From the NCBI RefSeq assembly GCF_000005825.2, contig NC_013791.2:3348001-3412000 (forward strand): a DNA stretch of 64,000 nt, written 5' to 3'. Both the position numbers and the translations under genes were made by a program. Source of the stretch: Alkalihalophilus pseudofirmus OF4. GTDB lineage: Bacteria > Bacillota > Bacilli > Bacillales > Bacillaceae_D. Numbering within the stretch: position 1 is the first letter of the stretch; each line of letters begins with the position of its first letter. Of the stretch, positions 11,537-58,335 are shown one piece after another. The notes below the pieces were generated by a model, which saw nothing but the letters and a program-made list of their open reading frames with translations, was not told where the DNA came from and did no database searches.

Positions 11537-11755
11537 GACTGAGCATCAACTGAAGAACCTCGAGACCGAGCGCTCAGTTGATACAAATAACTCAGATACA
11601 GACGCTATTCCTGCCAATACTGACGCTATAAACTCCTCAGATGGCGCAATTACAAGTTAATTGCGTCAGTTCAATCTATAATTGCGCGGGTCGTGTTAAT
11701 TATTTGTGCTGCTGTCTCAATTTATTGCGTCACTTCAAGCCGTCATTGCGCCACT
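11537..11755. repeat. 21-nt-phased GCAA array A, with inverted half and palindrome
   Basis: Cores read as CGC(A/T)AT at 11603, 11624 and 11645 (exactly 21 apart), then flip to ATTGCG with GCG at 11663, 11684, a decayed unit near 11706, 11727 and 11748. Sequence between cores is not conserved. Beside it is ACCGAGCGCTCAGT (11565-11578, one change from the 14-bp palindrome seen at arrays B and D), inside a 9-bp inverted repeat ATCAACTGA/TCAGTTGAT (11545-11553, 11574-11582). The array fills the yvjA-prfB gap beyond the prfB terminator. Confidence 0.8.
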
Positions 11756-11781
11756 CTGCTCGCCCTCTTCCCGCACCGCAC

Positions 11782-11811
11782 AAAAAAAGACTGTTCCCAA
11801 AAGAACAGTCT
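11782..11811 (-). terminator. Terminator of prfB
   Basis: AGACTGTTC and GAACAGTCT form a perfect 9-bp stem, followed by seven T on the minus strand, 10 nt past the prfB stop. Confidence 0.92.
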
Positions 11812-11821
11812 CCCTGCTAGA

Positions 11822-12926
11822 TTACATCTTCAATGATGAACGTAAATATGCATTGATAAATCCGTCTAAATCGCCGTCCATGACTGCGTTTGTGTTTCCG
11901 ATCTCGAAGTTTGTGCGGTGGTCTTTTACAAGGCTGTACGGATGGAACACATACGAACGGATCTGGCTTCCCCAGCCGATTTCTTTTTGTTCACCGCGGA
12001 TTTCTGCAAGTTCTTGCTGCTGCTTTTCAATCTCTAATTGATAAAGCTTCGCCTTTAACATCTTCATTGCTTGGTCACGGTTTTTAATCTGTGAACGTTC
12101 ACTTTGACATGTAACGACTGTGTTTGTCGGCAAGTGAGTGATACGGATGGCAGAGTCGGTTGTATTAATATGCTGACCACCGGCGCCGCTCGCACGGTAC
12201 GTATCAACTTTTAAGTCCTCGGTGCGGATATCAATTTCCACATTATCATCAAGCTCCGGCATGACTTCACAAGATACAAAGGATGTGTGACGGCGTCCTG
12301 ATGAATCAAACGGAGAAATACGAACGAGGCGGTGAACCCCTTTTTCCGCTTTTAAGTAGCCGTATGCGTTATGTCCTTTAATAAGGAGGGTAACGCTTTT
12401 CACCCCAGCCTCATCACCTGGCAGGTAATCCATTGTTTCGACTTTAAAGCCGCGCTGTTCGGACCAGCGAGTGTACATACGAAGGAGCATGGATGCCCAG
12501 TCTTGTGACTCCGTACCCCCAGCACCTGGGTGCAGCTCAAGAATTGCATTATTTTTATCATATGGCTCACTTAAAAGAAGCTGCAGTTCAAAGTCATTTA
12601 GACGAGAGATTAACTCTTTTACGCCTGCTTCAAGCTCTTTTTCAAGCTCTTCATCCGCTTCTTCTTTCACAAGCTCATAGGATACTTCAAGGTTCTCGTA
12701 CTTTTCTTCAAGCTCTAAAAATACATTGACTTGTTCTTTTAAGCCGTTTGACTCATTAATTACAGTTTGGGCAGCCTCTTGGTCATCCCAAAAGTCAGGA
12801 GCAGTCATAAACTCATCAAGTTCAGCCATGCGCTCTTGCTTCGCTTCTAAGTCAAAGAGACCCCCTAAAGTCTGTTAATCTTTTGGCCATTGCTGCTAGT
12901 TCTTGCTTCACTTCTACTAATTCCAT
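11822..12926 (-). CDS. prfB: Peptide chain release factor 2, with programmed +1 frameshift
   Basis: RF2 reads UGA and UAA stops and triggers peptide release on the ribosome. The gene is in two frames. ATG at 12926 opens 24 codons ending at an in-frame TGA (12852-12854); a +1 shift there joins the long frame, giving 367 residues, the usual RF2 length. The shifted frame has the SPF stop-recognition tripeptide and the catalytic GGQ ([15 protein letters not shown]). It is downstream of secA, as in B. subtilis. Annotating only the long frame from an internal ATG would lose the N-terminus. Confidence 0.97.
12851..12866 (-). promoter_or_regulatory. RF2 autoregulatory +1 frameshift site
   Basis: The minus strand reads AGG GGG TCT CTT TGA C: an internal Shine-Dalgarno-like AGGGGG (12861-12866), then the slippery CTT before TGA followed by C. 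This is the classic prfB signal by which low RF2 favours frameshifting and so more RF2. Confidence 0.97.
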
Positions 12927-12980
12927 ACGCTCACCTCATTAATTAATTCCCTACATAGATTTATTGCCGAAAAGGCTAAA

Positions 12981-13003
12981 GGAGCCCGCATAAGCGGGGC
13001 TCC
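12981..13003 (-). terminator. Hairpin between secA and prfB
   Basis: GGAGCCC pairs with GGGCTCC, with extra GC pairs near the loop. The following T-stretch is interrupted, so it is a weak terminator or attenuator; prfB may be partly transcribed from secA. Confidence 0.6.
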
Positions 13004-13031
13004 ATTCATACCTATATTATACGTTAGCGCT

Positions 13032-15551
13032 TTATTTCCCCGCTCCGCAGCAGTTTTTGTATTTCTTGCCGCTTCCGCAAATGCACGCGTCGTTACGTCC
13101 GATCGTTTCACCTTTACGGATTGGCTGCTTTTTCTTCGGTTCTTGTTTAGATGTATCTTGATGAACTGCTTTTCCTTCAGCTACTTTTTGACGCTCAAGG
13201 TTCTGCTGTACTTGTGCCTTCATGATGTACATTGAAACCTCTTCTTCAATAGAAGCAATCATCGCTTCAAACATTTCGAAGCCTTCGAAGCGGTATTCAC
13301 GCAATGGATCGTTCTGCCCGTATGCACGGAGGTGAATCCCTTGGCGCAGCTGATCCATTTGGTCAATATGGTTCATCCATTTACGGTCAACCGTGCGGAG
13401 CATAATAACTTTCTCGAACTCACGCATATGTTCAGGTGTGAACTGCTCTTCTTTTTCATTGTAGCGAGCAATCACTTTCTCCGTAATAGCCTCCACCATT
13501 TCCTCTGGATCTAAACCTTTAATGTCTTTCTCTTCAAGCTCGCCCTCTTGGAGAAGGTTTGCATTCATATAGTTGACGATCGCCATAAGATCCCAATCCT
13601 CTGGCACTTCATTCTCAGGTGTGTGCAGACGGACTGTGCGATCAATGACATCCTTAATCATCGTCTCCACAATTTTACGCAGGTTGTCAGACTCAAGTAC
13701 TTCCATACGCTGCTTGTAAATGATCTCACGCTGCTCACGCATTACGTCGTCATATTGAAGGATTTGCTTACGAGCATCGAAGTTGTTACCCTCTACTCGT
13801 TTTTGAGCCGTTTCAACCGCACGTGAAACAAGACGGCTTTCAATCGGCTGATCCTCTTCCATGCCAAGACGCTCCATCATTGAACGCATATTATCAGAGC
13901 CGAAGCGGCGCATTAATTCATCTTCCATTGATAAATAGAATTGAGATGAACCAGGGTCCCCTTGACGACCGGCACGACCACGAAGCTGGTTATCAATACG
14001 ACGACTCTCATGGCGTTCTGTACCTAGAACATGAAGACCGCCAAGCTCGCGTACACCTTCGCCTAGTTTAATATCTGTACCACGGCCGGCCATGTTTGTT
14101 GCGATCGTTACCGCACCTTGTTGACCTGCACCCTCAATAATTTCAGCCTCACGCTCATGATTTTTCGCATTTAATACATGATGCGGGACACGGCGTTTAT
14201 TTAACAGCTTTGAAACAAGTTCAGATGTCTCAACGCTTACAGTACCAACCAGTACAGGTTGTCCCTTTTTATGGATTTCTTCAATTTCGTTAACAACCGC
14301 TCTAAACTTCGCTTCCATCGTCTTGTAGATAAGATCCGGCTTATCGATACGGGCAATTGGTTTGTTGGTTGGAATCACCATAACGTCCATGCCGTAAATA
14401 TTGCGGAATTCTTCTTCTTCTGTCTTCGCAGTACCAGTCATACCGGCAAGCTTTTCATACATACGGAAGTAGTTTTGGAACGTGATAGAAGCAAGTGTCA
14501 TGCTCTCGCGCTGGATCTGCATGCCTTCTTTTGCTTCAATCGCTTGGTGAAGACCATCACTGTAGCGGCGTCCTTTCATCAGACGGCCTGTGAATTGGTC
14601 AACAATCACCACTTCACCGTCTTCCACCACATAGTCCCCATCACGCTGCATGACGACATGTGCTTTTAAAGACTGATTTAAGTGGTGGTTTAACTGAACA
14701 TGCTTTTGGTCATATAAGTTTTCAATTCCAAACGCGCGCTCTGCTTTTGAAACCCCTTCTTCTGTCAGCTGAACAGCTTTTGTTTTCTCATCAAACGTGT
14801 AATCTTCCTCTGCTTTTAACACGCGGATAAATGAGTTTGCCTGCGTGTACAGCTGGGTTGAACGTTCAACCGAGCCAGAAATAATTAACGGGGTTCTTGC
14901 TTCATCGACTAAGATCGAATCAACCTCATCGACAAGAGCAAAGTGAAGCGGACGCTGTACCATCTGCTCTTTGTAGAGAACCATGTTGTCACGAAGATAA
15001 TCAAAGCCTAGCTCGTTGTTTGTGCTGTACGTAATATCCGCACGGTATGCTTCTGCTTTTTCTTCTTTAGTAAGGCCTGATTCGTTCAGCCCGACAGTCA
15101 ATCCTAAGAAACGGAATAACTCACCCATCGTTTCACAGTCACGACGAGCTAAGTATTCATTGACTGTTACAACATGAACGCCTTTACCTGTTAAGGCATT
15201 TAAATAAACAGGGAGTGTTCCAACTAATGTTTTACCTTCCCCTGTTTTCATCTCAGATATATTTCCTTGGTGCAGTGCAATACCGCCTAATAACTGTACG
15301 CGGTAAGGTGTCATTCCAAGGACACGTGTTGAAGCTTCGCGAACAGTTGCGAAGGCTTCTGGTAATAAGTCATCTAGTTTTTCGCCTTTTTCAAGACGCT
15401 CTTTAAATTCAAACGTTTTCTTTTGAAGACCATCATCTGATAGCTTTTTCATATCATCGGCTAGCGCATCAATTTGGTCCACGATCTTTTCGTTTTTCTT
15501 TACTTGACGCTGACTTGGATCACCGATGACTTTTTTTAGTAGTCCTAGCAT
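13032..15551 (-). CDS. secA: Preprotein translocase ATPase SecA
   Basis: An 839-residue motor that drives protein export through SecYEG. Visible: Walker A MKTGEGKT (about 100), DEVD (about 207), the preprotein cross-linking and helicase-like second nucleotide domain ([28 protein letters not shown]), the helical scaffold, and a C-terminal zinc motif [14 protein letters not shown] that binds SecB or ribosomes in relatives. Full length. The ATG follows a GAGAGGG site. Confidence 0.97.
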
Positions 15552-15927
15552 TGAATTCGCCCTCTCTTCATTCAGCTCATAACAACAACTTTCTATGAAC
15601 GTGAAGCTTTATCTCGCATATGCTCAATTTTAACAGGTTAAATCTGCCCTTACAAGGTAATTACCGCTACGGGGCCTAGAAGATGTCGACACGAACCCGC
15701 CTTACAGTCAGTGAATCGACAACGCGAATCATTGAAAAAGTAAAACTTTATTAAATGGTGGGAGATTTTTTTGCCCCATCCCGAAACCTAAGCTTCACTT
15801 AGCCTTTCTTGTTTTTCATCAAGCTTCTATTTTTGGTACCTTGCACCCAATATACGGAATAAACCCATTTTCTTGAACGTTTTCATTTGATATAGTAGAA
15901 AAAAATGCAAAAAATGAGGAAATTCTG
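15552..15927. other. Intergenic region between divergent secA and the sensor kinase gene
   Basis: 376 bases without a supportable gene. A possible kinase promoter is TATAGT at 15893-15898 with a poor -35; GAGG at 15915-15918 serves as its ribosome site. I see no convincing secA promoter, riboswitch or array unit here. Confidence 0.4.
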
Positions 15928-17559
15928 ATGAAGAACCCGCTTAGCTATTTAAAAAAGGAGAGACCGTATCAACTTCGAACACTCATCATCCTGTTAGTAT
16001 CGATTGTGGTCGTTAGTGCCCTGCTGTTAACCGGCCTTCTTGTTGCCTACGATACCGCCCAGCGCAGCGAGCGGACTCTTGAAGAGAAAGCACGGACAAT
16101 CGCTGCAACGATCGGACAAACTCCAGATGTCATTTACGGGCTGCGTAACGGGGATCAAGATGGTTCTGTGCAAACCTTTACAAAAGAGGTTCAAGACCTA
16201 ACCGATGTTCACTATATCGTCGTCATGGACATGAACAGCATCCGGCTGTCACACCCAAATGAAGAATTAATAGGGGAGAGATTTGTCGGCGGCGATGAGG
16301 ACCGGGCCTTACAAGGTGAATCCTACACGTCAGTTGCAGAAGGGACATTAGGAGAATCTATGCGTGCCTTCGTACCCGTCTATGACGGAGATGAACAGAT
16401 CGGCGTTGTCTCTACCGGTATTTTGCAAAGCCAGATCCGCTCAACGATCATTGAAGGTCAAACAAGCATCATTTACGGGCTTATTCTCGGTTTGTTAGCT
16501 GGCTTAATCGGAGCCCTGTTTTTAGCGCAAAAGATTAAAAATGTCTTAAATGGGCTTGAACCTAGTGAAATTTCACAGCTGCTTAAAGAACGCGAGGCGA
16601 TGCTTGCTTCTGTTCGGGAAGGAATTATTGCGATTGATGAAAAAGGTGTGATCGTCGTTGCAAACCGTGCGGCTCTCAGCATGTTTGAACGTGCCGGGCT
16701 TAAGGGTAATCCATTAGGACAGCATGTCGCATCCTACATGCCAAACTCCCGACTGCATGAGGTATTAGTGCATAAAGAGATGAAATTAGACCAAGCGGAA
16801 AAGCTGAATAAGCTCGATATAGTCATTAATCATGTCCCTGTTAAGACGTCCGGCCGATTAGTCGGCGCCCTAGCTACCTTCCGTGATAAAACAGAACTGA
16901 CGATGATGCTAGAGCAATTATCAGGTGCGAAAACATATGCTGAAACCCTGCGCAGCCACACCCATGAATTTATGAATAAACTCCATGTCATCTCGGCGAT
17001 GGTTTTTACCGAGTCCTATGATGAATTGCAATCTTACATTCAAACAATCTCTGACTTCTATCAAAAGGATGTCGGCTGGATCTCCGACTATGTAAAGGAC
17101 CCAGTCTTAGCCGGCTATCTTCTAAACAAATTAAGCTTCTTAGAAGAACAAGGCGTCGAAGTTGATTTGTGCGGTGAAATGCCGTGGCCTTCGATTAGAC
17201 AAGCTGAGGTGCTGGATTCTCTTATTACAGTCATCGGCAACTCGCTGGATAACGCCTATGAAGCGATTAAAGACCAAGATGTGCAGGAACTCTATATTGA
17301 CGTTTCATATTCAGAAGATGGTTACTTAGAATGGACCGTAGAAGATAACGGGCCAGGGCTTAATGAGGATCATCCGAGAAATTGGCTGGAGAAAAAGCAA
17401 ACGACGAAAAGCGGCGACCGCGGCTACGGCATGTATCTAATTAATGAAGCAATCCGCCGTACAAACGGAGAGCTCGAAATTGAATCACAGAAAGGAGAAG
17501 GAATGACCTTTAAGGCACGCATTCCCTACACCAACCATGATACGAGTACTCATTATTGA
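15928..17559 (+). CDS. CitA/DcuS-family dicarboxylate sensor histidine kinase
   Basis: A 543-residue membrane kinase. Plan: TM1 (about 19-41), an extracytoplasmic PAS/Cache sensor (about 42-172), TM2 (about 176-199), a cytoplasmic PAS (about 215-320), a dimerisation helix with THEFMNKLH (phospho-His near 350), and an ATPase domain with N-box GNSLDNAYEA and DNGPGL. This layout is that of MalK, DctS, CitA and DcuS, which sense C4-dicarboxylates or citrate. The downstream DASS symporter gene supports a dicarboxylate ligand. The response regulator gene overlaps its 3' end. The exact ligand cannot be told from sequence. Confidence 0.85.
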   Translation: MKNPLSYLKKERPYQLRTLIILLVSIVVVSALLLTGLLVAYDTAQRSERTLEEKARTIAATIGQTPDVIYGLRNGDQDGSVQTFTKEVQDLTDVHYIVVMDMNSIRLSHPNEELIGERFVGGDEDRALQGESYTSVAEGTLGESMRAFVPVYDGDEQIGVVSTGILQSQIRSTIIEGQTSIIYGLILGLLAGLIGALFLAQKIKNVLNGLEPSEISQLLKEREAMLASVREGIIAIDEKGVIVVANRAALSMFERAGLKGNPLGQHVASYMPNSRLHEVLVHKEMKLDQAEKLNKLDIVINHVPVKTSGRLVGALATFRDKTELTMMLEQLSGAKTYAETLRSHTHEFMNKLHVISAMVFTESYDELQSYIQTISDFYQKDVGWISDYVKDPVLAGYLLNKLSFLEEQGVEVDLCGEMPWPSIRQAEVLDSLITVIGNSLDNAYEAIKDQDVQELYIDVSYSEDGYLEWTVEDNGPGLNEDHPRNWLEKKQTTKSGDRGYGMYLINEAIRRTNGELEIESQKGEGMTFKARIPYTNHDTSTHY

Positions 17560-18265
17560 AGATGACCCGATGGTAGCTAAGTTTAATGCGATCTTCGTTG
17601 AAAGAATTCCAGAGTTTAAGCTTGTTGGTGTCGCACGCGGCATTGAGGAGGGCTGGACGTATTTAAACGAGGAAGCTGTTGATTTAATTTTACTAGATGT
17701 ATATATGACAAATGAGAACGGGCTGGATCTATTAATGGAACTGCGACGCGAGAATCATCCGGTCGATGTGATCGTCGTCTCCTCCGCCAATGACCGCGGT
17801 TCGATTCAAACCGCCCTCCGTTTTGGTGCGGTAGATTATTTGATTAAGCCGTTTGAGTTTGATCGTTTTCAAGATGCGCTCTTACGTTATAAGCAGACCT
17901 TTCAAGATATGAAAAAAGAAGCAATCCAGCAAGAAGAGGTTGATCGTTTATTTTTAACAAAAGGCAATTCAAACAAAAATGTCCCAAAAGCTGATCTCCC
18001 CTTGCCAAAAGGAATCACAAAAGAAACGTACATACGCGTGCTGCGAGAAATTAATAAGCATAGCGACTGGTTCTCTACCAATGATCTAGTAGACGCAACA
18101 GGCATCTCACGCGTATCATTGAGAAAATACCTGCAATATTTAACGAACTCAGATATTCTCCTGTTCGATGTCGATTATCAGCGCACAGGCCGCCCGCTGC
18201 ATCAATATAAGCTGACCAACCAAGGCTATGATTATATTGTGAGTGTATTAAAGGAAGAGAAATAA
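17537..18265 (+). CDS. CitB/DcuR-family response regulator
   Basis: A 242-residue two-component regulator. The receiver domain (about 1-120) has acidic residues D9/D10, phospho-Asp in LILLDVYM (near 54), and Lys in LIKPF (near 103). After a linker comes a C-terminal helix-turn-helix (about 165-240, DATGISRVSLRKYLQYL), as in MalR/DctR/CitT. The ATG overlaps the kinase gene by 23 nt without a good ribosome site, so translation is probably coupled. Likely target: the transporter gene 320 bp downstream. Confidence 0.87.
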   Translation: MIRVLIIEDDPMVAKFNAIFVERIPEFKLVGVARGIEEGWTYLNEEAVDLILLDVYMTNENGLDLLMELRRENHPVDVIVVSSANDRGSIQTALRFGAVDYLIKPFEFDRFQDALLRYKQTFQDMKKEAIQQEEVDRLFLTKGNSNKNVPKADLPLPKGITKETYIRVLREINKHSDWFSTNDLVDATGISRVSLRKYLQYLTNSDILLFDVDYQRTGRPLHQYKLTNQGYDYIVSVLKEEK

Positions 18266-18270
18266 GCGGG

Positions 18271-18296
18271 AACTGCCGTGTTTGCGGCAGTTTTTT
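18271..18296 (+). terminator. Terminator of the two-component operon
   Basis: AACTGCCG and CGGCAGTT pair perfectly around a six-base loop, followed by a T-run. Confidence 0.92.
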
Positions 18297-18324
18297 GGTT
18301 TGGTGCGGTGTTTTATACTGGAGG

Positions 18325-18449
18325 ACTGAGCGCTCAGTAGGAGTTTTTTAGCAAATTTGTTGTCTTTTTTAGCAAAACCGTCATTTTTTCTAGCAAACTA
18401 GGTGACTTTTCTAGCAAATCTTTCAATTATTTTAACAAATGATAACAAA
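18325..18449. repeat. 21-nt-phased array B (TTTAGCAAA core) with flanking palindrome
   Basis: AGCAAA begins at 18350, 18371, 18392 and 18413, and AACAAA at 18434: five units exactly 21 nt apart, each after a T-rich stretch; a further AACAAA lies at 18444. The perfect 14-bp palindrome ACTGAGCGCTCAGT (18325-18338) sits between the upstream terminator and the first unit. The core differs from the other arrays (GACGCAATT) but shares the period, the GCAA and the position past a gene's 3' end. Confidence 0.8.
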
Positions 18450-18553
18450 TATTGGAACACACCTACCCTCTCTCACTTTCTTTAGTTACAAAACCCTGCA
18501 TAATAGTTTCTAAAACTGTACGATAAGACTCAAATGATTCAGAATATAAAGAA

Positions 18554-18567
18554 AGAAATCGCTTTCA
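18554..18567 (+). promoter_or_regulatory. Possible cre (CcpA) site upstream of the symporter
   Basis: AGAAATCGCTTTCA matches TGAAARCGYTTTCA at 12 of 14 positions, 20 bp before the start codon. It would fit carbon catabolite repression of dicarboxylate uptake. The match is imperfect. Confidence 0.4.
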
Positions 18568-18586
18568 AGAGAGGGAGGCTTTAAAC

Positions 18587-20251: not shown

Positions 20252-20253
20252 GT

Positions 20254-20297
20254 AAAAAGAGGAAATCAACTTTTCTAGGCGATTTCCTCTTTTTTTC
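20254..20297 (+). terminator. Terminator of the symporter gene
   Basis: AAAAAGAGGAAATC and GATTTCCTCTTTTT form a 14-bp stem ending in a T-run. Confidence 0.92.
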
Positions 20298-20361: not shown

Positions 20362-21024
20362 ATGTATCGAAATCAACGCAGTATCAATTGGGGGGTGGAC
20401 TCGGCCGCAGCTGTCACACAAGAGCTGTATGAGTGCGTCACCTCCTCGTACGGACAGCCTGACTTTTGGGGCCGCTTCCTAACCACGATTGAAAATGTAT
20501 GCGACGGCCTGACTCCTGAAGAGATACGCTTTATCCGCGATCAAGGGATGAAGATTATGCCGATCTATAACAATTTCAGTGAAGCAGTCGGTGAACGTGC
20601 CGGGGCAGTGGCCGCACGTAATGCGATCTTCCAAGCAAGACGGCTCGGCATTTTAGAAGGCAGCTTCATTTTCGCTACTATTGAAAATTTCTTCAATGTG
20701 GATCCAGCATGGCTGATTGCTTGGTCCGATGCGTTTTATACGAGTCCTTACCGCCCAGGCTTTTTAGGCGATCCGGTAGAAGGCGGCTTTAATGATGCGT
20801 ATTGTAATGCGTCTGAGGCAAGTGAGAGCATCCGCCAGCAAGCGGTGATCTTCAGCGCAGAACCTGAGCCCGGCACAACGCCTAAAAACCGTATTCCGCG
20901 CTATAATCCAGCACGACCGAGTTGTGATGCTAATGTATGGGCATGGCAATATGGACGCGATTCTGAATCCTGCCCAATTAATACCGTCTTAATGGAAGCA
21001 AGGCTGTATGAGACCCTGGGGTAG
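20362..21024 (+). CDS. DUF1906 (Rv2525c-like, glycoside-hydrolase-like) protein
   Basis: A 220-residue protein resembling the DUF1906 family, which has a GH25-like TIM barrel and is thought to act on the cell wall. Features: WGVDSAAAV near the N-terminus (barrel strand 1 with Asp), PDFWGRFL, LTPEEIRFIRDQGMKIMPIYNNF, and WAWQYGRDSESCPIN near the C-terminus. No signal peptide is visible. I start it at ATG 20362, right after AAGGAGG; an upstream in-frame ATG at 20317 has no site. Its stop is followed within 8 nt by array C and no terminator is seen. The substrate is unknown. Confidence 0.72.
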   Translation: MYRNQRSINWGVDSAAAVTQELYECVTSSYGQPDFWGRFLTTIENVCDGLTPEEIRFIRDQGMKIMPIYNNFSEAVGERAGAVAARNAIFQARRLGILEGSFIFATIENFFNVDPAWLIAWSDAFYTSPYRPGFLGDPVEGGFNDAYCNASEASESIRQQAVIFSAEPEPGTTPKNRIPRYNPARPSCDANVWAWQYGRDSESCPINTVLMEARLYETLG

Positions 21025-21028
21025 AGAC

Positions 21029-21163
21029 TGACGCAATTAGGACCTAATAAGCGCATTTAATCACCCAACCAGCGCAGTCCGAGCTTAGACTCACGCATAT
21101 CTGCCGGCAACCGACGCAATAGCACAAGCAACCCATATAATAACCAGCCAGACTGACGCAATC
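21029..21163. repeat. 21-nt-phased GCAA array C
   Basis: CGCA cores at 21032, 21052 (20 nt), 21073, 21094, 21115, a decayed unit near 21134, and 21157. Several read GACGCAAT. It starts immediately after the DUF1906 stop and fills the gap to the hpf terminator. GACGCAAT is in the sense direction of the gene to its left. Confidence 0.8.
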
Positions 21164-21180
21164 ATCCCTCACCCCTAAAC

Positions 21181-21218: not shown

Positions 21219-21229
21219 TTCACGTTATT

Positions 21230-46224: not shown

Positions 46225-46231
46225 ATTTATT

Positions 46232-47136: not shown

Positions 47137-47206
47137 AATAATTTAATTTGAATAATTTAATTTGAATAATTTAATTTGAATAATTTAATTTGAATAATTC
47201 ATTTCG
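47137..47206. repeat. 14-nt tandem repeat just upstream of degV
   Basis: Four perfect copies of AATAATTTAATTTG (47137-47192) plus one decayed copy (47193-47206). It begins 51 bp upstream of the degV ATG, directly downstream of a TATAAT -10, so it would be transcribed at the start of the degV mRNA. Such repeats readily change copy number by slippage. Confidence 0.9.
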
Positions 47207-47212: not shown

Positions 47213-47291
47213 CTCGTTTTCTCTTCTATTAAATGTACCGTTAATTCTACTAAGATACAAGAGGAGAGATAGTCGATTTATGTAGGGATAT

Positions 47292-47483
47292 GGAATTGCG
47301 TCTGTTCGGTTTCTGATTGCGTCGGTGGAGCTAGGAATTGCGCGGATGTCAGGGGTATTTGCGTCGACTCAGCATGTAATTGCGCGGGTTGACAGGGAAT
47401 GCGTCAATTCAGAGCTGAATTGCGCCGGTGTGGCGAGCGATTGCGTCTGTCTAGACTGTTATTACCTCAACTGAGCGCTCAGT
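47292..47483. repeat. 21-nt-phased array D with flanking palindrome
   Basis: ATTGCG cores with GCG at 47298, 47319, 47340, 47361, 47382, 47401, 47422 and 47443: steps of 21, 21, 21, 21, 19, 21, 21. Bases between cores differ in every unit. The perfect palindrome ACTGAGCGCTCAGT lies at 47470-47483, between the array and the degU terminator. The complement GACGCAAT is in the sense direction of degU. Confidence 0.88.
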
Positions 47484-47522
47484 CCATTGTTAGTCTGTCC
47501 TTAAAGTCTTCCTCTCCCAACC

Positions 47523-47557
47523 AAAAACAAGAGATACCACTAAGCGGTACCTCTTGT
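47523..47557 (-). terminator. Terminator of degS-degU
   Basis: ACAAGAGGTACC and GGTATCTCTTGT pair (one G-U, seven-base loop), followed by TTTTTGG on the minus strand. Confidence 0.9.
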
Positions 47558-47569
47558 CCACCATACGAA

Positions 47570-49498: not shown

Positions 49499-49742
49499 CC
49501 CCCACCGCCTTATACTGGCGCTAACTGGTGCAGAAATTTAAAGCTTGTCCATTTGCTTCATGATAAAGTTTCCGCTATCCTTATCTTACAACAATAGGAT
49601 GAAAAAAGCGTTACTTATTCCTAGCGTCCTTTTACTCATCTCGACTGCTTTATCGGATGACTACACTATAGTACCAAACCTTTATTACATAGCGATAACG
49701 CTGATTTGTAAAACTATGAAAAAAAGAGGAGGATTGGTGGCC

Positions 49743-50375: not shown

Positions 50376-50407
50376 TTTGGGCTTTGACCTCGTTTGGCGC
50401 CAGGTGA

Positions 50408-50545
50408 GCGGCGCAATTAATTAGGTAGTTGATACATTAACAAGCTGAACTGACGCAATTGCGCCTGCCTTTGACGCATATAAAGTGGAGAGTGACGCGA
50501 TTCCGCCCGAGAAGGAGGCAATAACTCCTTCAATCGACGCAATCG
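50408..50545. repeat. 21-nt-phased GCAA array E
   Basis: CGC cores at 50412, a decayed unit near 50433, then 50454, 50475, 50496, 50517 (as GGC) and 50538, all 21 nt apart. Several read GACGCAATT. It follows the yvyE stop by 37 nt with no terminator between. GACGCAAT is in the sense direction of yvyE. It fills the yvyE-pcp convergent gap. Confidence 0.85.
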
Positions 50546-50586
50546 CGCCCACCCTCAACCTGCCATGCCCTTAAAATCAATAGCTG

Positions 50587-51186: not shown

Positions 51187-51248
51187 TTATCTTCTCTCCT
51201 AATTAAACAGATAAAAGAGGTAGAAACGAATGTCTCTCCCTCGCAAAA

Positions 51249-51710
51249 TTATTTTGTAATATAAGAAAATGAGTCTTTGTATTGCTTCAGCTCAATATTC
51301 ACATCAGCTGAAATAATGCCTTCTATTTTTGCTAGTTCTTTATTTACAAAGTGAACGAGATCATCGTTATTTTTGAAATAGGCTTGCATAATCAAGTCAT
51401 GCTGGCCGGAAAAAGCACCGACAAAGCGGACTTCCGAGAAGCGGTTCAGCTCGCGTGCTATGCTCTCTTGGTAGCCGAGTTTGGTTGAGATGCCGATAAT
51501 GACTTGTACGTTTAAGCCGATTTTATTTGGGTTCATATGGATAATGAATTCAAAGACATTATCTTTTAGCATCCGGTTAATTCTTGTACGGACAGTTCCT
51601 TCACTTACATTTAATTCTTTTGCTATTTCGGTATAAGACTTCTTCCCGTCTTCTTGCAGAAAGCTTAGAATGGTGTAATCCATTTCATCGATCTTAGACA
51701 TGTTCATCAC
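51249..51710 (-). CDS. Lrp/AsnC-family transcriptional regulator
   Basis: 153 residues. N-terminal HTH (LQEDGKKSYTEIAKELNVSEGTVRTRINRML) and C-terminal RAM/ligand domain (NVQVIIGISTKLGYQESIARELNRF, VRFVGAFSGQHDLIMQAYF). These regulators respond to amino acids. It follows the first Opp operon in the same direction, after a terminator, so it may sense peptide-derived amino acids; the target is not known. Starts: GTG 51710 or ATG 51701. Confidence 0.9.
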   Translation of the reverse strand: MMNMSKIDEMDYTILSFLQEDGKKSYTEIAKELNVSEGTVRTRINRMLKDNVFEFIIHMNPNKIGLNVQVIIGISTKLGYQESIARELNRFSEVRFVGAFSGQHDLIMQAYFKNNDDLVHFVNKELAKIEGIISADVNIELKQYKDSFSYITK

Positions 51711-51760
51711 TCATTTCATTTAAGTCTTACTCACGTTTAAAAAATGAGCAACAGGTTTAA

Positions 51761-51793
51761 TAAAAGGACAGAGAATTGCTCTCTCTGTCCTTT
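51761..51793 (-). terminator. Terminator of the first Opp operon
   Basis: AAAGGACAGAGA and TCTCTGTCCTTT form a perfect 12-bp stem followed by TATT on the minus strand. Confidence 0.85.
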
Positions 51794-51799
51794 CCGTTT

Positions 51800-52735
51800 T
51801 TATTTTTCAATTACTCGTGGATCAAGCGCATCACGAAGGCCGTCCCCAATGAAGTTAAAGCATAATACGGTTATTAAGATCAATAAACCTGGGAATGTCG
51901 GGTACCACCAAGCGTTACGGAAAATCGTAATACTTTGAGAGTCCGTTAACATATTCCCCCAAGATGCATTTGGCGGTTGAACCCCAAGACCGAAGAAGCT
52001 TAGCGCTGATTCGGCAAGGATAAATCCACCTACTGCTAGAGTAGCCGCTACGATAACAGGTCCAAGTGCATTTGGTAAAATCTGTGTAAAGATAATCCGG
52101 GCATTAGACATCCCGATTGTACGAGAGGCAAGCACAAATTCACGTTTCTTTAAGGTTAAGAACTCTCCACGAACTACACGAGCTGTCCCCGTCCAACTTA
52201 GCAAAGCAAACACAAGAATGAGAATATTGATGCTTGGCTGCAGGATTGCAACGAGTGTAATTAATAAGAAAATATTCGGGAACGCAAGGATTACGTCTAC
52301 TAAACGCATTAAAAATGCATCCACCAGTCCGCCGAAATACCCTGCTACAGCTCCAATAACAGAGCCAATAGCCACTGCTCCAAGCATCGATGCAAACCCT
52401 ACATATAGAGATACCTGCCCACCGTAAAGCATACGGCTAAATAAATCACGCCCTAAATGATCAGTACCAAGCCAGAAATCAGAGCTTGGAGGAGCCAGAC
52501 GATTTCTAAGGTCTTGATAAGATGGATCATGTGGTGCAATATAAGGTGCTAGTAAACACGCAGTTGTAATTATAGCGAGTGTGATAATGCCAAATACGGC
52601 AAGCTTATTTTGTAAAAATTTACCAATGATAATCGATAGGAGAGAGCGACGTTCTCCAATTAACTGCTTGTCCTCAACCGGAGGTTTCCCTTCAGGTGTA
52701 CTCGGTTGAAATACTTGTTGTGCATTAGATTCCAT
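51800..52735 (-). CDS. Opp/Dpp-type peptide ABC transporter permease, OppC family (operon 1)
   Basis: A 311-residue inner permease with an N-terminal OppC_N segment, then the ABC permease core. The EAA loop that docks the ATPases is visible (ASRTIGMSNARIIFTQILPNALGPVI). About six membrane helices. The conserved end FNFIGDGLRDALDPR is present. Last gene of operon 1. It partners the OppB-type permease 15 bp upstream. Confidence 0.92.
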   Translation of the reverse strand: MESNAQQVFQPSTPEGKPPVEDKQLIGERRSLLSIIIGKFLQNKLAVFGIITLAIITTACLLAPYIAPHDPSYQDLRNRLAPPSSDFWLGTDHLGRDLFSRMLYGGQVSLYVGFASMLGAVAIGSVIGAVAGYFGGLVDAFLMRLVDVILAFPNIFLLITLVAILQPSINILILVFALLSWTGTARVVRGEFLTLKKREFVLASRTIGMSNARIIFTQILPNALGPVIVAATLAVGGFILAESALSFFGLGVQPPNASWGNMLTDSQSITIFRNAWWYPTFPGLLILITVLCFNFIGDGLRDALDPRVIEK

Positions 52736-52749
52736 GAAGTCTCCCCTCC

Positions 52750-53712
52750 TTAATACTCAATCCGCGGATCAAGGACTGCATATAAAATATCCGCAATTAA
52801 GTTACCAATTACTGTTAATAGTGCACCAAACATTGTGATCGCCATAATGACAGGATAATCACGCTGGAATGTCGCATCGATAAATAATTTCCCGATTCCA
52901 GGCCAGCCAAATACTGATTCAACGATCGCTGAACCGCCGATCATTGTCGGAAGCATTAAACCAAACATGGTGATAACCGGAATTAATCCGTTACGAAGTC
53001 CGTGCTTATAAATAACGCGGCGCTCTCTGAAACCTTTTGCACGAGCGGTACGTATATAATCTTGATTAACCACTTCAAGCATACTAGAACGTGTATAACG
53101 AGTGAGTCCCGCCATATCCGCTGTGGCAAGAACTAATGCTGGCAGTATCAAGTGTTTTAGTCGATCAAGTATACTGAAGTCAGCCCCTATTGTAGCCACA
53201 CCCCCAATAGGTGTCCATCCGAGTTGTACAGAGAATACCATGATCAACATAATTCCTAGCCAAAAGTTCGGTGTGGCAAGTCCAATAAACGACCCAAAGG
53301 TCACTCCATAATCCGTTAAAGAATACTGCCTAGTAGCTGAAATAACCCCAAATGGTATCGCTATTATGGCTGCTAAAAACAGCGAGGTCGCCATTAGTAG
53401 CAAAGTATTTGGAAGACGATCTAAAATCATTTCCGTTACAGGCATCTTACGTGAATAGGACGTTCCAAAGTCACCTTGAGCAACGTTACCTAACCAACGT
53501 ACATATTGCACAGGAATCGGATCATTTAACCCTAGTCGTTCAATTTGAGCTTCTCGTACTTCTGCAGAAATCTCAGGATCAAGATTTAAAATAGCAGGCT
53601 TACCTGGTGCAGCATACATAATTGCAAATGATATGATGGAAATACCAATTAGAATTGGGATCATCATGATCAGCCGTCTGATGATGTAACTAGTCATAAT
53701 TTCATTCCTCAC
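52750..53712 (-). CDS. Opp/Dpp-type peptide ABC transporter permease, OppB family (operon 1)
   Basis: 320 residues. Family start (YIIRRLIMMIPILIGISIISFAIM) and EAA loop (TARAKGFRERRVIYKHGLRNGLIPVI) are visible, ending VLDPRIEY as usual. Six membrane helices. A stable hairpin separates it from the binding-protein gene upstream, probably limiting permease relative to binding protein. Confidence 0.92.
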   Translation of the reverse strand: MRNEIMTSYIIRRLIMMIPILIGISIISFAIMYAAPGKPAILNLDPEISAEVREAQIERLGLNDPIPVQYVRWLGNVAQGDFGTSYSRKMPVTEMILDRLPNTLLLMATSLFLAAIIAIPFGVISATRQYSLTDYGVTFGSFIGLATPNFWLGIMLIMVFSVQLGWTPIGGVATIGADFSILDRLKHLILPALVLATADMAGLTRYTRSSMLEVVNQDYIRTARAKGFRERRVIYKHGLRNGLIPVITMFGLMLPTMIGGSAIVESVFGWPGIGKLFIDATFQRDYPVIMAITMFGALLTVIGNLIADILYAVLDPRIEY

Positions 53713-53739
53713 AATCCCTCAAGATAGTTTAGTAGAGTA

Positions 53740-53763
53740 GGAAGGGGAGGGAAATCCCCTTCC
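53740..53763 (-). other. Intercistronic hairpin between binding-protein and permease genes (operon 1)
   Basis: GGAAGGGGA and TCCCCTTCC form a perfect 9-bp stem with no T-run. It is likely an mRNA-stabilising hairpin giving more binding protein than permease. Operon 2 has a counterpart at the same place. Confidence 0.65.
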
Positions 53764-53780
53764 CCCCACTACTTGAAGGC

Positions 53781-55457
53781 TTACTCTGTTACGTACCACT
53801 CATTAACTTTGTAGCTGTTTAAACGTGGGTGATGAGTAAAACCTTGCAAACGGTTATTTAAAAGTACATGTTGTTCTGGATAGAATAAGAACGTGTATGG
53901 TTGCTCTTCAGCAACAATTTGGAAGATCTCAGAAATTGCTTCTGCACGCTCATCCTGATCCACAATTTTCTTGTTTGCATCTGCAAGTTCATCAACAGTC
54001 GGATTATTGTAAGAGATACTGTTTAAGCCAGCTTGATTTTCACGGGAATGCCAAATCGCTGATGGATCTGGATCAAGACCTAATCCCCATGCAAGCACAA
54101 CTGCATCAAAATCACGGTTTGGAGGATTTGTTTGTTCTAAGAACGCACCCCACTCCATTTGACGAGCTTCTACTTCAATACCGATATCACCAAGCATTTG
54201 TTGAACAATAACACCAATGTCACGACGAACGACGTTACCATCATTAGAAAGGATTTCAAAAGCGAAACGCTCTCCATCTTTTTCAAGGATGCCATCAGCA
54301 CCAGGCTCCCAGCCAGCTTCAGCTAAAAGCTCTTTTGCACCTTCAGGATCATAATCAAATTCAGGAGCAGAATCAGGATAAGCCCAGCTAAGAGGAGATG
54401 CCGGAGCATGCGCTACTTCTGCACGTCCTTCCATAATTTCATCAACGATAAGCTGACGATCAATAGCCATTGTTAAAGCTTGACGTACTTTAGGGTCTTG
54501 GAATAATGGACGCTCATTATTCCATCCAATGTAGTCATATCGTAATGCTAGAGTTGAAGAAATACGACCGTGGTCATATGTTTCAGCTGTAGCATATTCT
54601 GTAGCAGGCAGAATCATATGATCTGTTTCACCAGTTTCAAATAGTAATAATTCAGCGTTTGAATCCGACGCTACACGCCATGTGATTTTGTCTAAATATG
54701 GACCATCAGCAAAATAATCTTCATGAGCAACAAGCTCAATATATTGTCCATCTACATACTCAACGAATTCAAATGGACCGGCACCAATTGGGTTGTTACG
54801 GTTATATTCCATGTGCTCTTCAAGATCTGCTACAGGAACATCGTCTAGAATATGTTTAGGAAGAATTCCATAAGTAGTACGTGTAGAGAACGTAGCATCT
54901 ACATCAGATAAAATGAACTTTACTGTGTAATCGTCAATGACCTCAACACTATCAAGGTATTCAAAATCACCAGCACGTGGGCCTGTGTAATCTTCGTGGA
55001 TGAAGATATCGTAAGTAAACTTTACATCTTCAGCTGTAAGCTCTTCTCCATCGTGGAATAGAACACCTTCATGAATCGTATACGTATGCTCTAATCCATC
55101 TTCAGAAATCTCAGGCAATTCTGTTGCAAGGGATGGAGTTAGATTTAATTCAGGGTCAGCCTCAATAAGCTGCGCATGAATCATATCTGCTACATCACTA
55201 CTAGCTGTATCTTGAATATAAAGCGGGTTGAATGTTACCGGCTCACCCGATGTGCTTAAAACGATACTTCCACCTTGTTGAGGCTCGCCGCTTGCAGCTT
55301 CCTCACCATCACCATCTTCGCCTTCACCTTCTACTGGATCTTCAACATCTGGATCTTCATCTGTTGATGCAGGCTCATCTGAACCGCCGCATGCTGCAAG
55401 TACAAGCATAAGCGCCATGACCATGCCTAACAGCACTAACAAACTTTTCTTTGTCAT
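53781..55457 (-). CDS. Peptide-binding lipoprotein, SBP family 5 (operon 1)
   Basis: About 558 residues. Signal peptide MTKKSLLVLLGMVMALMLVL with lipobox LAAC anchors it outside the membrane; an acidic linker (about 24-55) follows. The SBP_bac_5 domain (VKFTYDIFIHEDYTG, RYDYIGWNNERPLFQDPKVRQALTMAID) binds peptides. I start at ATG 55457, with GGGGG upstream, not 18 codons earlier. Ligand range (di- or oligopeptide, nickel) cannot be told from sequence. Confidence 0.92.
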   Translation of the reverse strand: MTKKSLLVLLGMVMALMLVLAACGGSDEPASTDEDPDVEDPVEGEGEDGDGEEAASGEPQQGGSIVLSTSGEPVTFNPLYIQDTASSDVADMIHAQLIEADPELNLTPSLATELPEISEDGLEHTYTIHEGVLFHDGEELTAEDVKFTYDIFIHEDYTGPRAGDFEYLDSVEVIDDYTVKFILSDVDATFSTRTTYGILPKHILDDVPVADLEEHMEYNRNNPIGAGPFEFVEYVDGQYIELVAHEDYFADGPYLDKITWRVASDSNAELLLFETGETDHMILPATEYATAETYDHGRISSTLALRYDYIGWNNERPLFQDPKVRQALTMAIDRQLIVDEIMEGRAEVAHAPASPLSWAYPDSAPEFDYDPEGAKELLAEAGWEPGADGILEKDGERFAFEILSNDGNVVRRDIGVIVQQMLGDIGIEVEARQMEWGAFLEQTNPPNRDFDAVVLAWGLGLDPDPSAIWHSRENQAGLNSISYNNPTVDELADANKKIVDQDERAEAISEIFQIVAEEQPYTFLFYPEQHVLLNNRLQGFTHHPRLNSYKVNEWYVTE

Positions 55458-55587
55458 CGTCTTTCCCCCTAAACCTTTTTTAAGTATTTTTTCTTGCAGT
55501 CTTGCTAACATCCTACTGCTTTGCCTTTAGCCTTAGTATGTAGGCAACACCTCCCTTAATGATTAACCTTTTTCAAACATTCTTGGC

Positions 55588-56604
55588 TTACTTATAAAGG
55601 TGACAAGCTACAAAATGATCTTTTTTCACTTCTCTATATGCCGGCGTGACTTGCTTACACTCTTCCATCGCCATCGGACAGCGTGTATGGAACACACATC
55701 CTGTCGGCGGGTTAGATGGACTTGGAATTTCCCCTGTTAAAATAATGCGCTCACGTTTCACTTCTGTCGGGTGTGAACGAGGCACCGCTGATAAGAGCGC
55801 CTGTGTGTAAGGATGCAATGGATCAGCATATAAATCCTTCTTACTTGCTACTTCCATCATTTTCCCAAGGTACATTACACCGATTCGATCAGAAATATGT
55901 TTAACAACCCCCAGATCATGGGCAATAAATAAGTAAGTGAGTCCAAACTCATCTTGAAGATCTTTAAATAGATTCAATACCTGAGACTGAACAGACACAT
56001 CAAGGGCTGATACTGGCTCATCTCCAATAATCAATTTAGGATTTAATGCCAGGGCTCGTGCAATCCCGATACGCTGACGCTGACCACCTGAAAACTCATG
56101 CGGGTAACGATTGGCGTAGGCTGGATTCAAACCAACTTTTTCCATCAAATCTTCAATGTATTCCTGCCTAGCTTTCCCTTTATACATACCGTGAACGCTT
56201 AATGGTTCACGTAAGATTGTTTGCACCGTTTTTCGCGGGTTAAGCGAAGAGAATGGATCCTGGAATACCATTTGGATATCCTTACGAAATGGATGCAGCT
56301 CTCTTTCTTTCATGTTGGAGATATCTTTTCCGTCAAAGATGATCTGACCATCAGTCGGTTCATATAGACGCATTAACGTTCGTCCGGTTGTGGACTTCCC
56401 GCAGCCAGACTCTCCTACAAGACCGAATGTTTCTCCTTTTCGAACGAAGAAGCTGATGTCATCTACTGCTTTGACATGACCCACTGTTCTTTGAAACATT
56501 CCTTTTTTGATTGGGAAATGTTTTTTCAGGCCATTTACTTCAAGCAATACATCGTTCTCTTTAGCCGCGCCAGCATCCGGGCGGTCAGTTAGTTGTGTGC
56601 TCAT
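55588..56604 (-). CDS. Opp/Dpp-type ABC ATPase, OppF family (operon 1)
   Basis: About 338 residues. Walker [10 protein letters not shown] (near 70), signature [15 protein letters not shown] (near 155), Walker [13 protein letters not shown], and the C-terminal oligopeptide-transporter extension with cysteines ([16 protein letters not shown]) that binds an iron-sulfur cluster in some members. Start ATG 56604 follows AAGGAG and overlaps oppD by 20 nt. Confidence 0.92.
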
Positions 56605-57592
56605 TGTTGCTCGCTCCTTCCTCAAACAAGAAACATCTCACCTTACGTCCCGGTTCAACCTCAAGCAGCTCAGGCTGCTCTCCTACACAGCGCGCCATAG
56701 CGTGCGGACATCGTGTGACAAAGCGGCATCCTGTAGGAAAGTTGTCCGGTGTCGGCACATTCCCGGCAATCGATGTAAGCCGATCTTTTTCATCATCAAC
56801 ATGCGGTACAGATTCCATTAATCCTTTTGTATAAGGATGAAGAGGCTTATCAAACAACGGAACCACATTCGCTTCTTCAACCACCTGGCCTGCATACATG
56901 ACGACAACGCGGTCGGCAAGTTCAGCTACCACTCCCAAATCATGAGTAATGAGAATAATAGAAGAGTTAAATTTATCACTTAATCCTCGCATTAGATCAA
57001 GAATCTGCGCTTGAACCGTTACATCCAGTGCTGTGGTTGGCTCATCGGCAATTAATAGTTTCGGGTCACAGCTCATCGCCATTGCAATCATGACACGCTG
57101 CCTCATCCCGCCAGATAAGCGGTGCGGATAATCACGAAGAATTTCATCTACGCGAGAGAATCCAACGAGCTGCAGCATTTCACGAGCGCGCTCGTAAGCT
57201 TGTTTCTTTGAGAGCTTCTTGTGGTAGATGAGCGTTTCCATCAACTGATCTCCAACTGTAAATACAGGGTTTAATGAGGTCATCGGCTCCTGGAAGATCA
57301 TTCCGATATCATTTCCACGAACCTTATACATCTTGTCTTCCCCTTGCTTGAGAAGATCCTCACCATTGAATACAATTTCTCCGCCAACGGTTTTTCCGCC
57401 CGGAGAAGGTACCAGCCGCATAAGAGATAACGTAGTCATACTCTTACCAGACCCTGATTCCCCTACAATCGCCAATGTTTCCCCTTGTTTCACTTCAAAG
57501 GACACATCATCTACAACAGGAAGCTCTTTTCCTTTTTTAAAGAAATAGGTTTTTAGATTTCGAACCTCTAGCAATGGCTTGTTTTCCACCAT
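56585..57592 (-). CDS. Opp/Dpp-type ABC ATPase, OppD family (operon 1)
   Basis: 335 residues. Walker [10 protein letters not shown], signature [15 protein letters not shown], Walker [13 protein letters not shown], and the C-terminal cysteine extension ([16 protein letters not shown]). First gene of operon 1, after a long leader with a promoter and CodY-like box. Works with OppF as the ATPase pair. Confidence 0.93.
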
Positions 57593-57790
57593 AACATTTA
57601 CACCTCTTTATCCTAGAAGACTACATTCCAATTATGAAATAACGAGAAAGAGCTTGAATCTATTTCCCAGGTAAGCAAGAACAAGAAAATTATGAATTAT
57701 CAAGAGAATTGAATACTCATTCATACCTGGTATGGACTAAAACAATCGGCCATACCCATTGTCTCAGCTGCTATTATCAACTTTTCTCAT

Positions 57791-57854
57791 AGTTTTCTGC
57801 AAATTTAGTAAATTGGACTAACGTCATTATATGTCAATGTCATAAAGAATGCAA
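57791..57854 (-). promoter_or_regulatory. Promoter and CodY-like box of Opp operon 1
   Basis: On the minus strand TTGCAT (57849-57854), 17 bp, TATAAT (57826-57831) predicts start near 57819. Just downstream, 57791-57805 reads AATTTGCAGAAAACT, matching the CodY motif AATTTTCWGAAAATT at 13 of 15. A repressor there would block early transcription, fitting amino-acid control of peptide uptake. The gap at 57593-57790 otherwise shows nothing clear. Confidence 0.6.
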
Positions 57855-58157
57855 TATTCAATCTTTTTAAAATAATTTTTCTTTGTGATAAATTCTTACA
57901 GACTTCGTAATCAAAATGTAATGAAACATTGTCCTTATGCGATTTAACAGGCTTCCAATTCGAATTGTGTAAATAAAAAAGCCATTCCTTACGAATTTAT
58001 AAACAAGCTTATAGACCCATAATTGGGAGAATCAAGCAAAAAATTATATTAATATAAAGGTAAGCGTTTACATTTAATGGATGTAGATGTGTGATGTCGG
58101 ACGAGTGTATACCACATTAATATGTATCGGGTGCTGGGCAGGAATAGTGCAGAGCCT

Positions 58158-58335
58158 GATTGCGTCAGTTGTAGCCTTTAATGCGTCTTCCCTCTCTACT
58201 TATGCGTCGCTCTCTTCTATAATTGCGTCGCTTCAGACCAATATTGCGCCTCTCTCCTCTTATTGCGTCAGTCTTCGCCGCTATTTGATCGATTTCCTGC
58301 TTATATGTAATATTTCCCTGCATTAATGCGCCGGT
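58158..58335. repeat. 21-nt-phased array F (longest)
   Basis: GCG cores at 58163, 58184, 58205, 58226, 58247, 58266, then decayed units near 58287 and 58308, and 58329: steps 21, 21, 21, 21, 19, then 21. Most read ATTGCGTC or AATGCGTC; intervening bases are pyrimidine-rich and not conserved. GACGCAAT is in the sense direction of the operon-2 permease gene ending to the right. Confidence 0.88.

Follow-up and report, generated by a model that had tools for sequence, protein, structure and literature searches.

Helix-phased arrays of a short directional core past gene ends in Alkalihalophilus pseudofirmus OF4, with similar arrays in its order

What holds a short sequence word at steps of about two helical turns, several times in a row and all in one direction, in gaps between genes where the bases between successive words differ? 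The question is raised by six arrays in a 64-kb stretch of DNA from A. pseudofirmus OF4 (the window, to which the positions of arrays and flanks below refer). That these arrays are real, and members of a genome-wide family, is confirmed; what they do is a matter of more graded judgement.

The six arrays of the window

All six arrays claimed in an earlier note, made from the letters of the window, are present where it placed them, and lag 21 is the top lag for repeated 6-mers in the window (104 pairs versus a mean of 31.7 for lags 10-59). Its picture of a uniform 21-nt step is right for most steps, but array 4 (47290..47475, minus strand) and array 6 (58154..58339, minus strand, first units degenerate), both whole nine-unit elements, have one 19-nt step after unit 4, array 4 being read as four units, the 19-nt step and five units. 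Arrays 3 and 5 are shorter, partial elements: array 3 (21023..21168, plus strand; about six units) starts where the upstream ORF ends, at its stop codon, with an element-model match spanning model positions 82-182, and array 5 (50403..50549, plus strand; about seven units) has a match spanning model positions 4-142. Array 1, though present, is not a single run, as its orientation flips half way, from about four units in the GCAA orientation (11573..11656, plus strand, an element-model match) to about five in the opposite one (11654..11760, minus strand), and the same layout, flip included, is found in another genome, G002. The GCAA core is that of the family, but array 2 (18342..18450, plus strand) departs from it with a TAGCAAA core, of which there are four exact GCAA at 21-nt steps together with decayed units; it has a near-identical counterpart in G002 at C1:3591228, at the offset of neighbouring elements. 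(The TAGCAAA class was followed by exact cores only, its own profile having drifted onto coding trinucleotide repeats.) The 8-9-base core is indeed kept, but conservation is wider and includes an A that precedes the first G of the core by three bases.

A genome-wide family at gene ends

The typical OF4 copy is an element of about 178 bp with nine directly repeated cores, gaAccGRCGCAATwA, all facing one way at steps of 21, 21, 21, 19, 21, 21, 21 and 21, with the 8-bp core carrying about 9.5 bits and the copies having a G-rich 5' flank and a C-rich 3' flank. With a sequence model, 88 matches, whole or partial, come up in the genome at E 0.01, all 88 on the main contig and none on the two small contigs. 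For 1.264 Mb of OF4, a phased-profile scan yields 64 blocks scoring above 18 versus 0 in a backwards-read control (75 versus 8 at scores above 14), and a whole-element profile yields 31 matches above 15, 28 of them above 30, versus 0 backwards. The nine-unit layout is held by 28 whole elements, the same 2-bp slip occurs at 25 of the 28 junctions joining neighbouring blocks of one array, and in eight arrays of the 1.264-Mb sample there is only a single block. Three GCAA at 21-nt steps occur 39 times genome-wide versus once for the reversed pattern, counts that take in overlapping matches inside arrays and some coding repeats, and a word-free scan of OF4 finds 12 windows at lag 21 versus 0-2 at each other lag from 15 to 30. 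The excess of 21-nt periodicity that the earlier note proposed as a check is present genome-wide when set against the reversed controls.

With respect to genes, 40 of 51 elements lie past a predicted intrinsic terminator of the upstream gene, as illustrated in the window by the gaps between stop codon and element 5' of array 4 (47476..47569, minus strand) and of array 6 (58340..58472, minus strand), each with such a predicted terminator. Elements between divergent genes number 0 of 31 and 2 of 35, codirectional gaps being also able to hold promoters.

A possible platform for protein assembly

The reading preferred here, plausible but tentative, is that the array is a DNA-level platform along which protein subunits line up head-to-tail, all on the same helix face. 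Subunits would assemble one per two turns, with the core as the contact word, on array DNA that would itself be curved in phase with them; one-face assembly on phase-curved DNA would thus leave the DNA bent, or perhaps wrapped. Predicted curvature is 7.2 versus a genomic 3.7 degrees per turn in 28 elements, 1.3 SD above that of column-permuted arrays for the same number, and the difference has the same sign in 9 of 10 other groups, all with an assumed set of dinucleotide values. From its position shortly after a terminator, an array could serve to pin, insulate or compact the chromosome at a distance from promoters. The data that support the platform include the fixed architecture in the genus, the selection on the core, the helix-length step in many lineages, the place past terminators and the lack of a special RNA fold, and also the recurrent 2-bp slip, the gain or loss of one 21-bp unit and the confinement of all 88 matches to the main contig.

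Conserved cores or satellite-like growth

Across 20 ortholog pairs, 70 of 1432 core sites (4.9%) have changed versus 217 of 2025 spacer sites (10.7%), with per-position change at about 3% in GCAAT and 11-15% in mid-spacer, which indicates that natural selection keeps the array cores. In the alignment of orthologous gaps that the earlier note called for, core and phase stay and spacers drift. The chief competing account, somewhat unlikely, is of satellite-like DNA whose units, roughly two helical turns long, were produced by slippage or unequal crossing-over, which dispersed in the distant past and has survived where it does no harm (past terminators), with gene conversion between copies responsible for the low divergence of cores. 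Tandem duplication growth of this kind is clear in G014, G024, G271, G119 and one G001 locus (by 21, 42 or about 81-124 bp), G001 having one perfect tandem array; the lengths of two arrays differ by one gained or lost 21-bp unit; and spacers of the same index are slightly alike between copies (0.348 versus 0.310 permuted), as they would be after common descent. Against it, the neighbour likeness expected of an ordinary tandem repeat or VNTR, and present at those loci, is absent from the OF4 elements (adjacent spacers 0.291, distant ones 0.324), the nine-unit layout is constant in 28 copies, the copies are old and mostly syntenic, and the cores are kept while the spacers drift. The original proposal of selection and not simple duplication is partly supported: the kept cores and phase and the dissimilar adjacent spacers of OF4 speak for it, and the clear tandem growth and the 18-20-bp steps of other lineages speak against its strong form.

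Improbable alternatives: topoisomerase, transcript or transposon

About 180 bp of phased curved DNA past genes is also what might be looked for in a site of gyrase-type wrapping on the 3' side of transcription units, comparable to the strong gyrase site or BIME-2, an improbable identity for these arrays. The E. coli gyrase motif, as described in the part of PMC6379681 used here, is 130 bp long with G/C content periodic at 10.75 bp, and gyrase accumulates downstream of operons being transcribed, an enrichment not encoded in the motif. That motif is symmetrical about the cleavage site, whereas the nine cores all point in one direction; a core of about 9.5 bits, a word that changes with lineage and arrays of up to 38-55 counted units also fit it poorly.

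Location at the 3' ends of genes would equally suit an element in 3' untranslated regions read at the RNA level by an RNA-binding protein. In strictly convergent pairs a terminator is predicted on the 3'-side gene in only 2 of 26, so the mRNA of that gene may cross the array in antisense. This origin is nevertheless hardly to be expected of elements of which most lie beyond the terminator of the upstream gene, whose folding is ordinary (z of -0.44 and -0.16 on the two strands for 28 elements with 20 shuffles each), whose relatives at 45 loci of other genomes are of mixed orientation with respect to genes (9 same, 15 opposite) and whose helix-length spacing would have no reason in single strands. 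Rfam 15 covariance models give no matches in the window at the gathering threshold, and none in L085:9000-15500, which holds three elements, at E up to 0.5.

One layout scattered through the genome, in copies that mostly lie to one side of a terminator, could be what remains of a MITE-like mobile element inserted past terminators, a quite unlikely source given several results. As an indirect test of terminal inverted repeats, 60-base flanks pair no better with their own partners than when swapped (-22.1 versus -22.5 kcal/mol); the two small contigs have no match to the model; a blastn search of plasmid and phage records with one element gives no matches, a weak test for sequence so diverged; and 80 of the 88 matches can be chained, order and strand agreeing, to a second genome, closely so for 73, with 8 and 4 elements unmatched. 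A role of Chi (AGCGG) in break protection, suggested by the sites flanking 28 elements (16 towards versus 4 away), was dropped because the bias of this first set was not replicated in 35 further elements (8 versus 0, 4.8 expected).

Related arrays across the order

Arrays of this kind, built on different words, turn up throughout the order, and the helix-length step is seen across many lineages. A word-free scan of 40 genomes at a strict threshold gave 3 at lag 20, 3 at lag 21 and 0 at the other 20 lags. The strict pattern GCGCAAW is positive in 3 of the 41 family genomes scanned, and four GCAA in 15 of those 41, in 79 of 249 of the order and in 16 of 121 drawn from the whole class, the 121 including 9 genomes of the order, though coding repeats contribute to all these figures and some genomes are also positive for the reversed pattern. 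Steps of 18-20 bp are found in other lineages, and in loci picked for 21-bp steps the departures from 21 are nearly all to 18-20; such shorter-only slips could reflect deletion bias. L161, L302, L359 and L360 have 13-27 units, free of slips and with every step an exact 21 bp, as plain tandem growth gives. Some arrays outside the genus could be coding, given that 10 of 45 loci fall within an open frame of at least 100 codons and that the slips at L301 and L304 are of 18 bp and leave the reading frame intact.

Lineage-specific words suggest that the protein of the proposed platform would have a drifting specificity. An extension, speculative and unlikely as a whole, is that Bacilli of this order have helix-phased, nucleosome-like positioning arrays past terminators, together with a co-evolving and fast-drifting wrapping protein, the words being each lineage's own and the spacing constant, often with a correction of 2-3 bp every 4-6 units for a mean of about 20.5 bp (10.25 bp per turn). 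Were it true, many bacteria of one order would use a sequence-coded, helix-phased DNA architecture, and there would be a handle on folding or insulation of low-GC Gram-positive chromosomes at gene ends as well as a naturally occurring series in which DNA-binding specificity drifts.

Comparison with known systems

The supposition that the arrays match no known repeat family holds among the families tested, of which none fits, and searches of an open-access library found no description of helix-phased arrays of this form. CRISPR repeats are about 23-50 bp, with newly acquired spacers of about 25-45 bp; here the whole unit is 21 bp and ortholog spacers drift by substitution. REP and BIME sequences are dispersed intergenic repeats, often past genes, but their units are palindromic, whereas the arrays are directional and have no hairpin, as the fold scores above indicate.

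Sites of the LytTR family (AgrA, HdrR, BrsR and others) are direct repeats of about 9 bp with unconserved gaps of 12 bp, a minority being 11 or 13 bp, and are of low sequence conservation between systems, according to the portion of PMC6193735 drawn on. The arrays share the 21-bp step, with some at 20, but LytTR sites are repeat pairs just upstream of promoters, while an array has from several up to dozens of units and mostly lies beyond a terminator, where codirectional gaps may hold promoters too. A LytTR half-site like ACCACTTAT does not fit in the OF4 genome (p 0.77); the half-site model reaches p 0.05 or less in 5 of 25 groups (G112, G200, G229, L427b and L433).

RemA and LrpC sites consist of repetitive direct repeats of poor conservation; such DNA is proposed to be wrapped about an octamer, and superimposing DNA on (RemA)8 gave four DNA fragments (PMC8481266, in part). 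The four-unit, 82-bp period of the arrays may resemble one RemA wrap, as a parallel only, but RemA footprints lie at promoters and protect 7 bp at a time, with 3-bp gaps. A RemA-like family is present in 8 of 8 genomes, six of the proteins having 65-70 of 70 residues identical to that of OF4; as the binder it is made less likely by its identity over 70 residues in OF4 and G003, whose array words differ. A second RemA-like protein, labelled RemB/YaaB, is 74% identical between OF4 and G003 and has 32-64% identity to five others.

BldC operators, from the sections of PMC5859096 used, have direct repeats in variable number, head-to-tail binding and strong DNA distortion, but at about 9 bp per unit (AATTxxxxC) and in Streptomyces promoter regions. 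The TAACTGA heptamers of Beggiatoaceae, many intergenic direct repeats in one genome with function unassigned, differ in being mostly just upstream of start codons, and the part of PMC4679880 that was used reports no helix-phased step. Lastly, a palindrome, ACTGAGCGCTCAGT, has just two perfect copies within the 1.264 Mb, which are found in the window next to arrays 2 and 4; it is a local feature outside the array family.

A nine-core element in the source genome

The helix-phased arrays are a real, old and selected class whose function is something we infer; many lineages of the order have them, with words particular to each. All six intergenic arrays claimed for the window in the earlier note are present and in place; the constant 21-nt step seen in them stands for most steps but gives way, in most paired arrays, to one 19-bp step after four units. 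The window is C1:3348001-3412000 of the source genome (G000, 4.25 Mb, three contigs, of which C1 is the main one). A profile scan covered it together with 60 further stretches of 20 kb, of which 58 came from C1 (61 stretches and 1.264 Mb in all), and yielded 64 phased blocks above score 18 as against none in the reversed control, and 75 as against 8 above score 14. Blocks mostly come in pairs, the first of four units and the second of five, with 21-bp steps inside each block and a 19-bp step between the two; a few blocks are shorter or longer by one unit, and eight arrays have one block only. Where one block follows another within an array, 25 of the 28 junctions have this 2-bp slip, the remaining three being +1 (array 1, window ~11573-11760), -1 and +18. 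Nine cores are visible when 25 arrays are aligned on the junction, and a whole-element profile gave 28 matches above score 30 and 31 above 15, with none in the reversed control. The consensus unit is gaAccGRCGCAATwA plus a few free bases, GATACAAT being the commonest unit 2 and GACGCATA the commonest unit 8.

A 14-bp palindrome, ACTGAGCGCTCAGT, adjoins arrays 2 and 4 (window 18325 and 47470), these being its only exact copies in the 1.264 Mb; a shorter variant lies by array 1, near 11560, and a short AT-rich tandem repeat, GAATAATTTAATTT, is beside array 4 (47150-47200). At G000:C1:3180709-3180874, GCAA also recurs in 21-nt phase, but this GCA/ATA-rich sequence is apparently a coding trinucleotide repeat rather than an array.

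Copy number and distribution

With a sequence-only model, 88 matches at E 0.01, some of them halves of one array as with array 1, were obtained from the whole genome, the best 150 of 623 candidates having been scored. All are on C1 and none on the two small contigs (9% of the genome; chance ~2e-4 if uniform), the first 5 kb of one of which, C2, has 99.8% identity to an Alkalihalophilus pseudofirmus plasmid. Within the genus, matches at E 0.001 number 85, 84, 86 and 1. About 1 Mb of one replichore outside the window (G000:C1 2103476-3100894) has none of the 88 (chance ~4e-12 if uniform), and a comparable stretch of the second genome of the species (G002:C1 2376564-3336344) has none of its 84; fewer convergent gaps there may be part of the reason.

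Age and selection

When the matches of the two genomes were chained by their order, strand and offset, 80 of the 88 were joined to those 84, 73 of the chained matches having an offset within 6 kb of their neighbour's and 8 and 4 being unmatched. When 27 elements were sought in the fetched part of the second genome, both flanks were found for 20, one for 3 and none for 4. In the 20 pairs of aligned orthologous gaps, cores change less often than spacers, at 70 of 1432 core versus 217 of 2025 spacer positions (Fisher 4e-10). Flanks of the same pairs, a mixed yardstick for substitution because coding ends are included, changed at 196 of 2907 positions upstream and 157 of 2918 downstream. Change is ~3% at GCAAT, 4.4% at the conserved A before the core, 7-8% at the first three core positions and 11-15% in mid-spacer.

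Simple duplication had been doubted in the earlier note. Among the elements of G000, adjacent spacers within one copy show no likeness, and same-index spacers are slightly more alike between copies than index-permuted ones (0.348 vs 0.310); this speaks against recent tandem growth there, and for either long-standing descent of the copies from a single ancestor or demands particular to each index. Elements have gaps in 5 of the 20 ortholog pairs (21; 1; 22 and 17; 4; 21 and 8 bases). In two alignments (loci L078 vs L235 and L072 vs L241) one whole 21-bp unit was gained or lost.

Genomic position

Genes were called by our own codon-pair method, without annotation, and terminators by a simple finder of our own. 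The first sample has 31 elements: 18 are flanked by codirectional genes, 15 of these elements having the genes' orientation and 3 the opposite one, 13 are convergent and none is divergent, against a background of 664 gaps of at least 60 bp with 122 divergent and 82 convergent. A further 39 stretches gave 38 matches above score 40, 3 of them missing a neighbour gene; the 35 with both neighbours are 15 convergent, 12 same, 6 opposite and 2 divergent.

A terminator is predicted between the stop codon and the element's 5′ end in 21/25 and 19/26 cases of the two sets, and for a 3′-side gene pointing at the element in just 3/13 and 3/21; a recount over strictly convergent pairs gave 21/25 for the 5′ side and 2/26 for the 3′ side. 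In the first 120 bases of element-free gaps the proportions are 93/215 (codirectional) and 30/80 (convergent sides), with 16/518 in coding windows. The 5′ side is thus enriched (40/51 vs 93/215, Fisher 8e-6) and the 3′ side depleted (6/34 vs 30/80, Fisher 0.047); a few of the element gaps searched exceeded the control length.

Flanks, folding and curvature

GC skew is ~+0.3 before the element and ~-0.4 after it (+0.28 and -0.21 in the second set), with G+C raised in most classes; its sign is the same for convergent, codirectional and two opposite cases, control codirectional gaps having +0.10 and +0.15. Pairing between an element's two flanks beyond the swapped-flank level was not found, nor was a special element RNA fold, folding being close to that of shuffles. 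On Bolshoy wedge values, five-unit blocks are predicted to curve by 7.2 degrees per turn versus 3.7 for genomic windows, 1.3 SD above column-permuted arrays; other groups exceed their permuted arrays in 9 of 10 cases, genome G119 being below.

Some non-orthologous elements (L073, L086, L004 and L102 upstream; L074 and L010/L110 downstream) have in common a flank of ~120-140 bp at 81-92% identity, their arrays being 44-59% alike. A second dispersed repeat adjoins them.

Candidate binders

BldC exemplifies a protein that binds head-to-tail on direct repeats (PMC5859096). The 9-bp word and 12-bp gap of the arrays are the geometry of LytTR sites (PMC6193735). A LytTR half-site model showed no better fit to G000 than to permuted columns (p 0.77); among 25 groups, 5 reach 0.05. 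RemA, an octameric ring with a LytTR-related domain, is proposed to wrap repetitive DNA in Bacillus (PMC8481266). It is unlikely to be the reader of the word, since all 70 residues compared are identical in G000 and the congeneric G003 although their words differ; identity across six proteins read of eight is 65-70 of 70.

Arrays in other genomes of the order

Four exact GCAA at 21 nt occur, coding repeats included, in 79/249 genomes and 49/105 genera. The matches listed in a named scan (80 of at least 116 stretches, many from unrelated phyla and left out of the study) include Bacillus methanolicus, Evansella, Robertmurraya, Lederbergia, Rossellomorea, Halobacillus, Lentibacillus, Domibacillus and Alkalihalophilus marmarensis, the last with the nine-unit element itself (L133). 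Words differ between genomes, examples being TTTCCGGCAACTTC (G014), TTTTTCAGCAACTTC (G024), TTTTCGCGCAAAT (G003) and GTGCAATTAAG (G112). In G014, G024, G013, G271 and G119 a step of 18-19 bp comes back after every 4-6 units (period 124 = 5x21+19 in the last), and other genomes have runs of 20-bp steps. Single steps over 49 loci (401 of 21 bp, 78 of 18-20 bp, 3 of at least 22 bp) give no rate, as loci were picked for 21-bp steps, steps recur within duplicated arrays and irregular end steps were trimmed.

By crude ORFs, 45 loci are 17 convergent, 9 codirectional same, 15 opposite and 1 divergent, with 3 lacking an upstream ORF. Some of these arrays may be coding, since an open frame of at least 100 codons spans 10 of the 45; the 19-bp steps break the reading frame. 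L301 and L304 (G024; 38 counted units each) could be coding repeats, their 18-bp slips keeping a frame that is open across the array. L336 (G271) and L337 (G119) are very long, with 52 and 55 counted units over more than a kilobase; at every fourth or sixth unit their step is 19 bp.

A word-free scan at lags 14 to 35 covered 766 kb of sequence drawn from 40 genomes in the order, of which 38 have no match to the four GCAA. At the strict threshold it gave three self-similar noncoding windows at lag 20, three at lag 21 and none at other lags, one of the six, in L409, looking coding; at looser thresholds other lags turn up singly. The new words are ATTACAGCTTA, TTTATGAGCCTT, GTACCGTTTAT, TTCGGTAAAT and AATCTTCGAAA.
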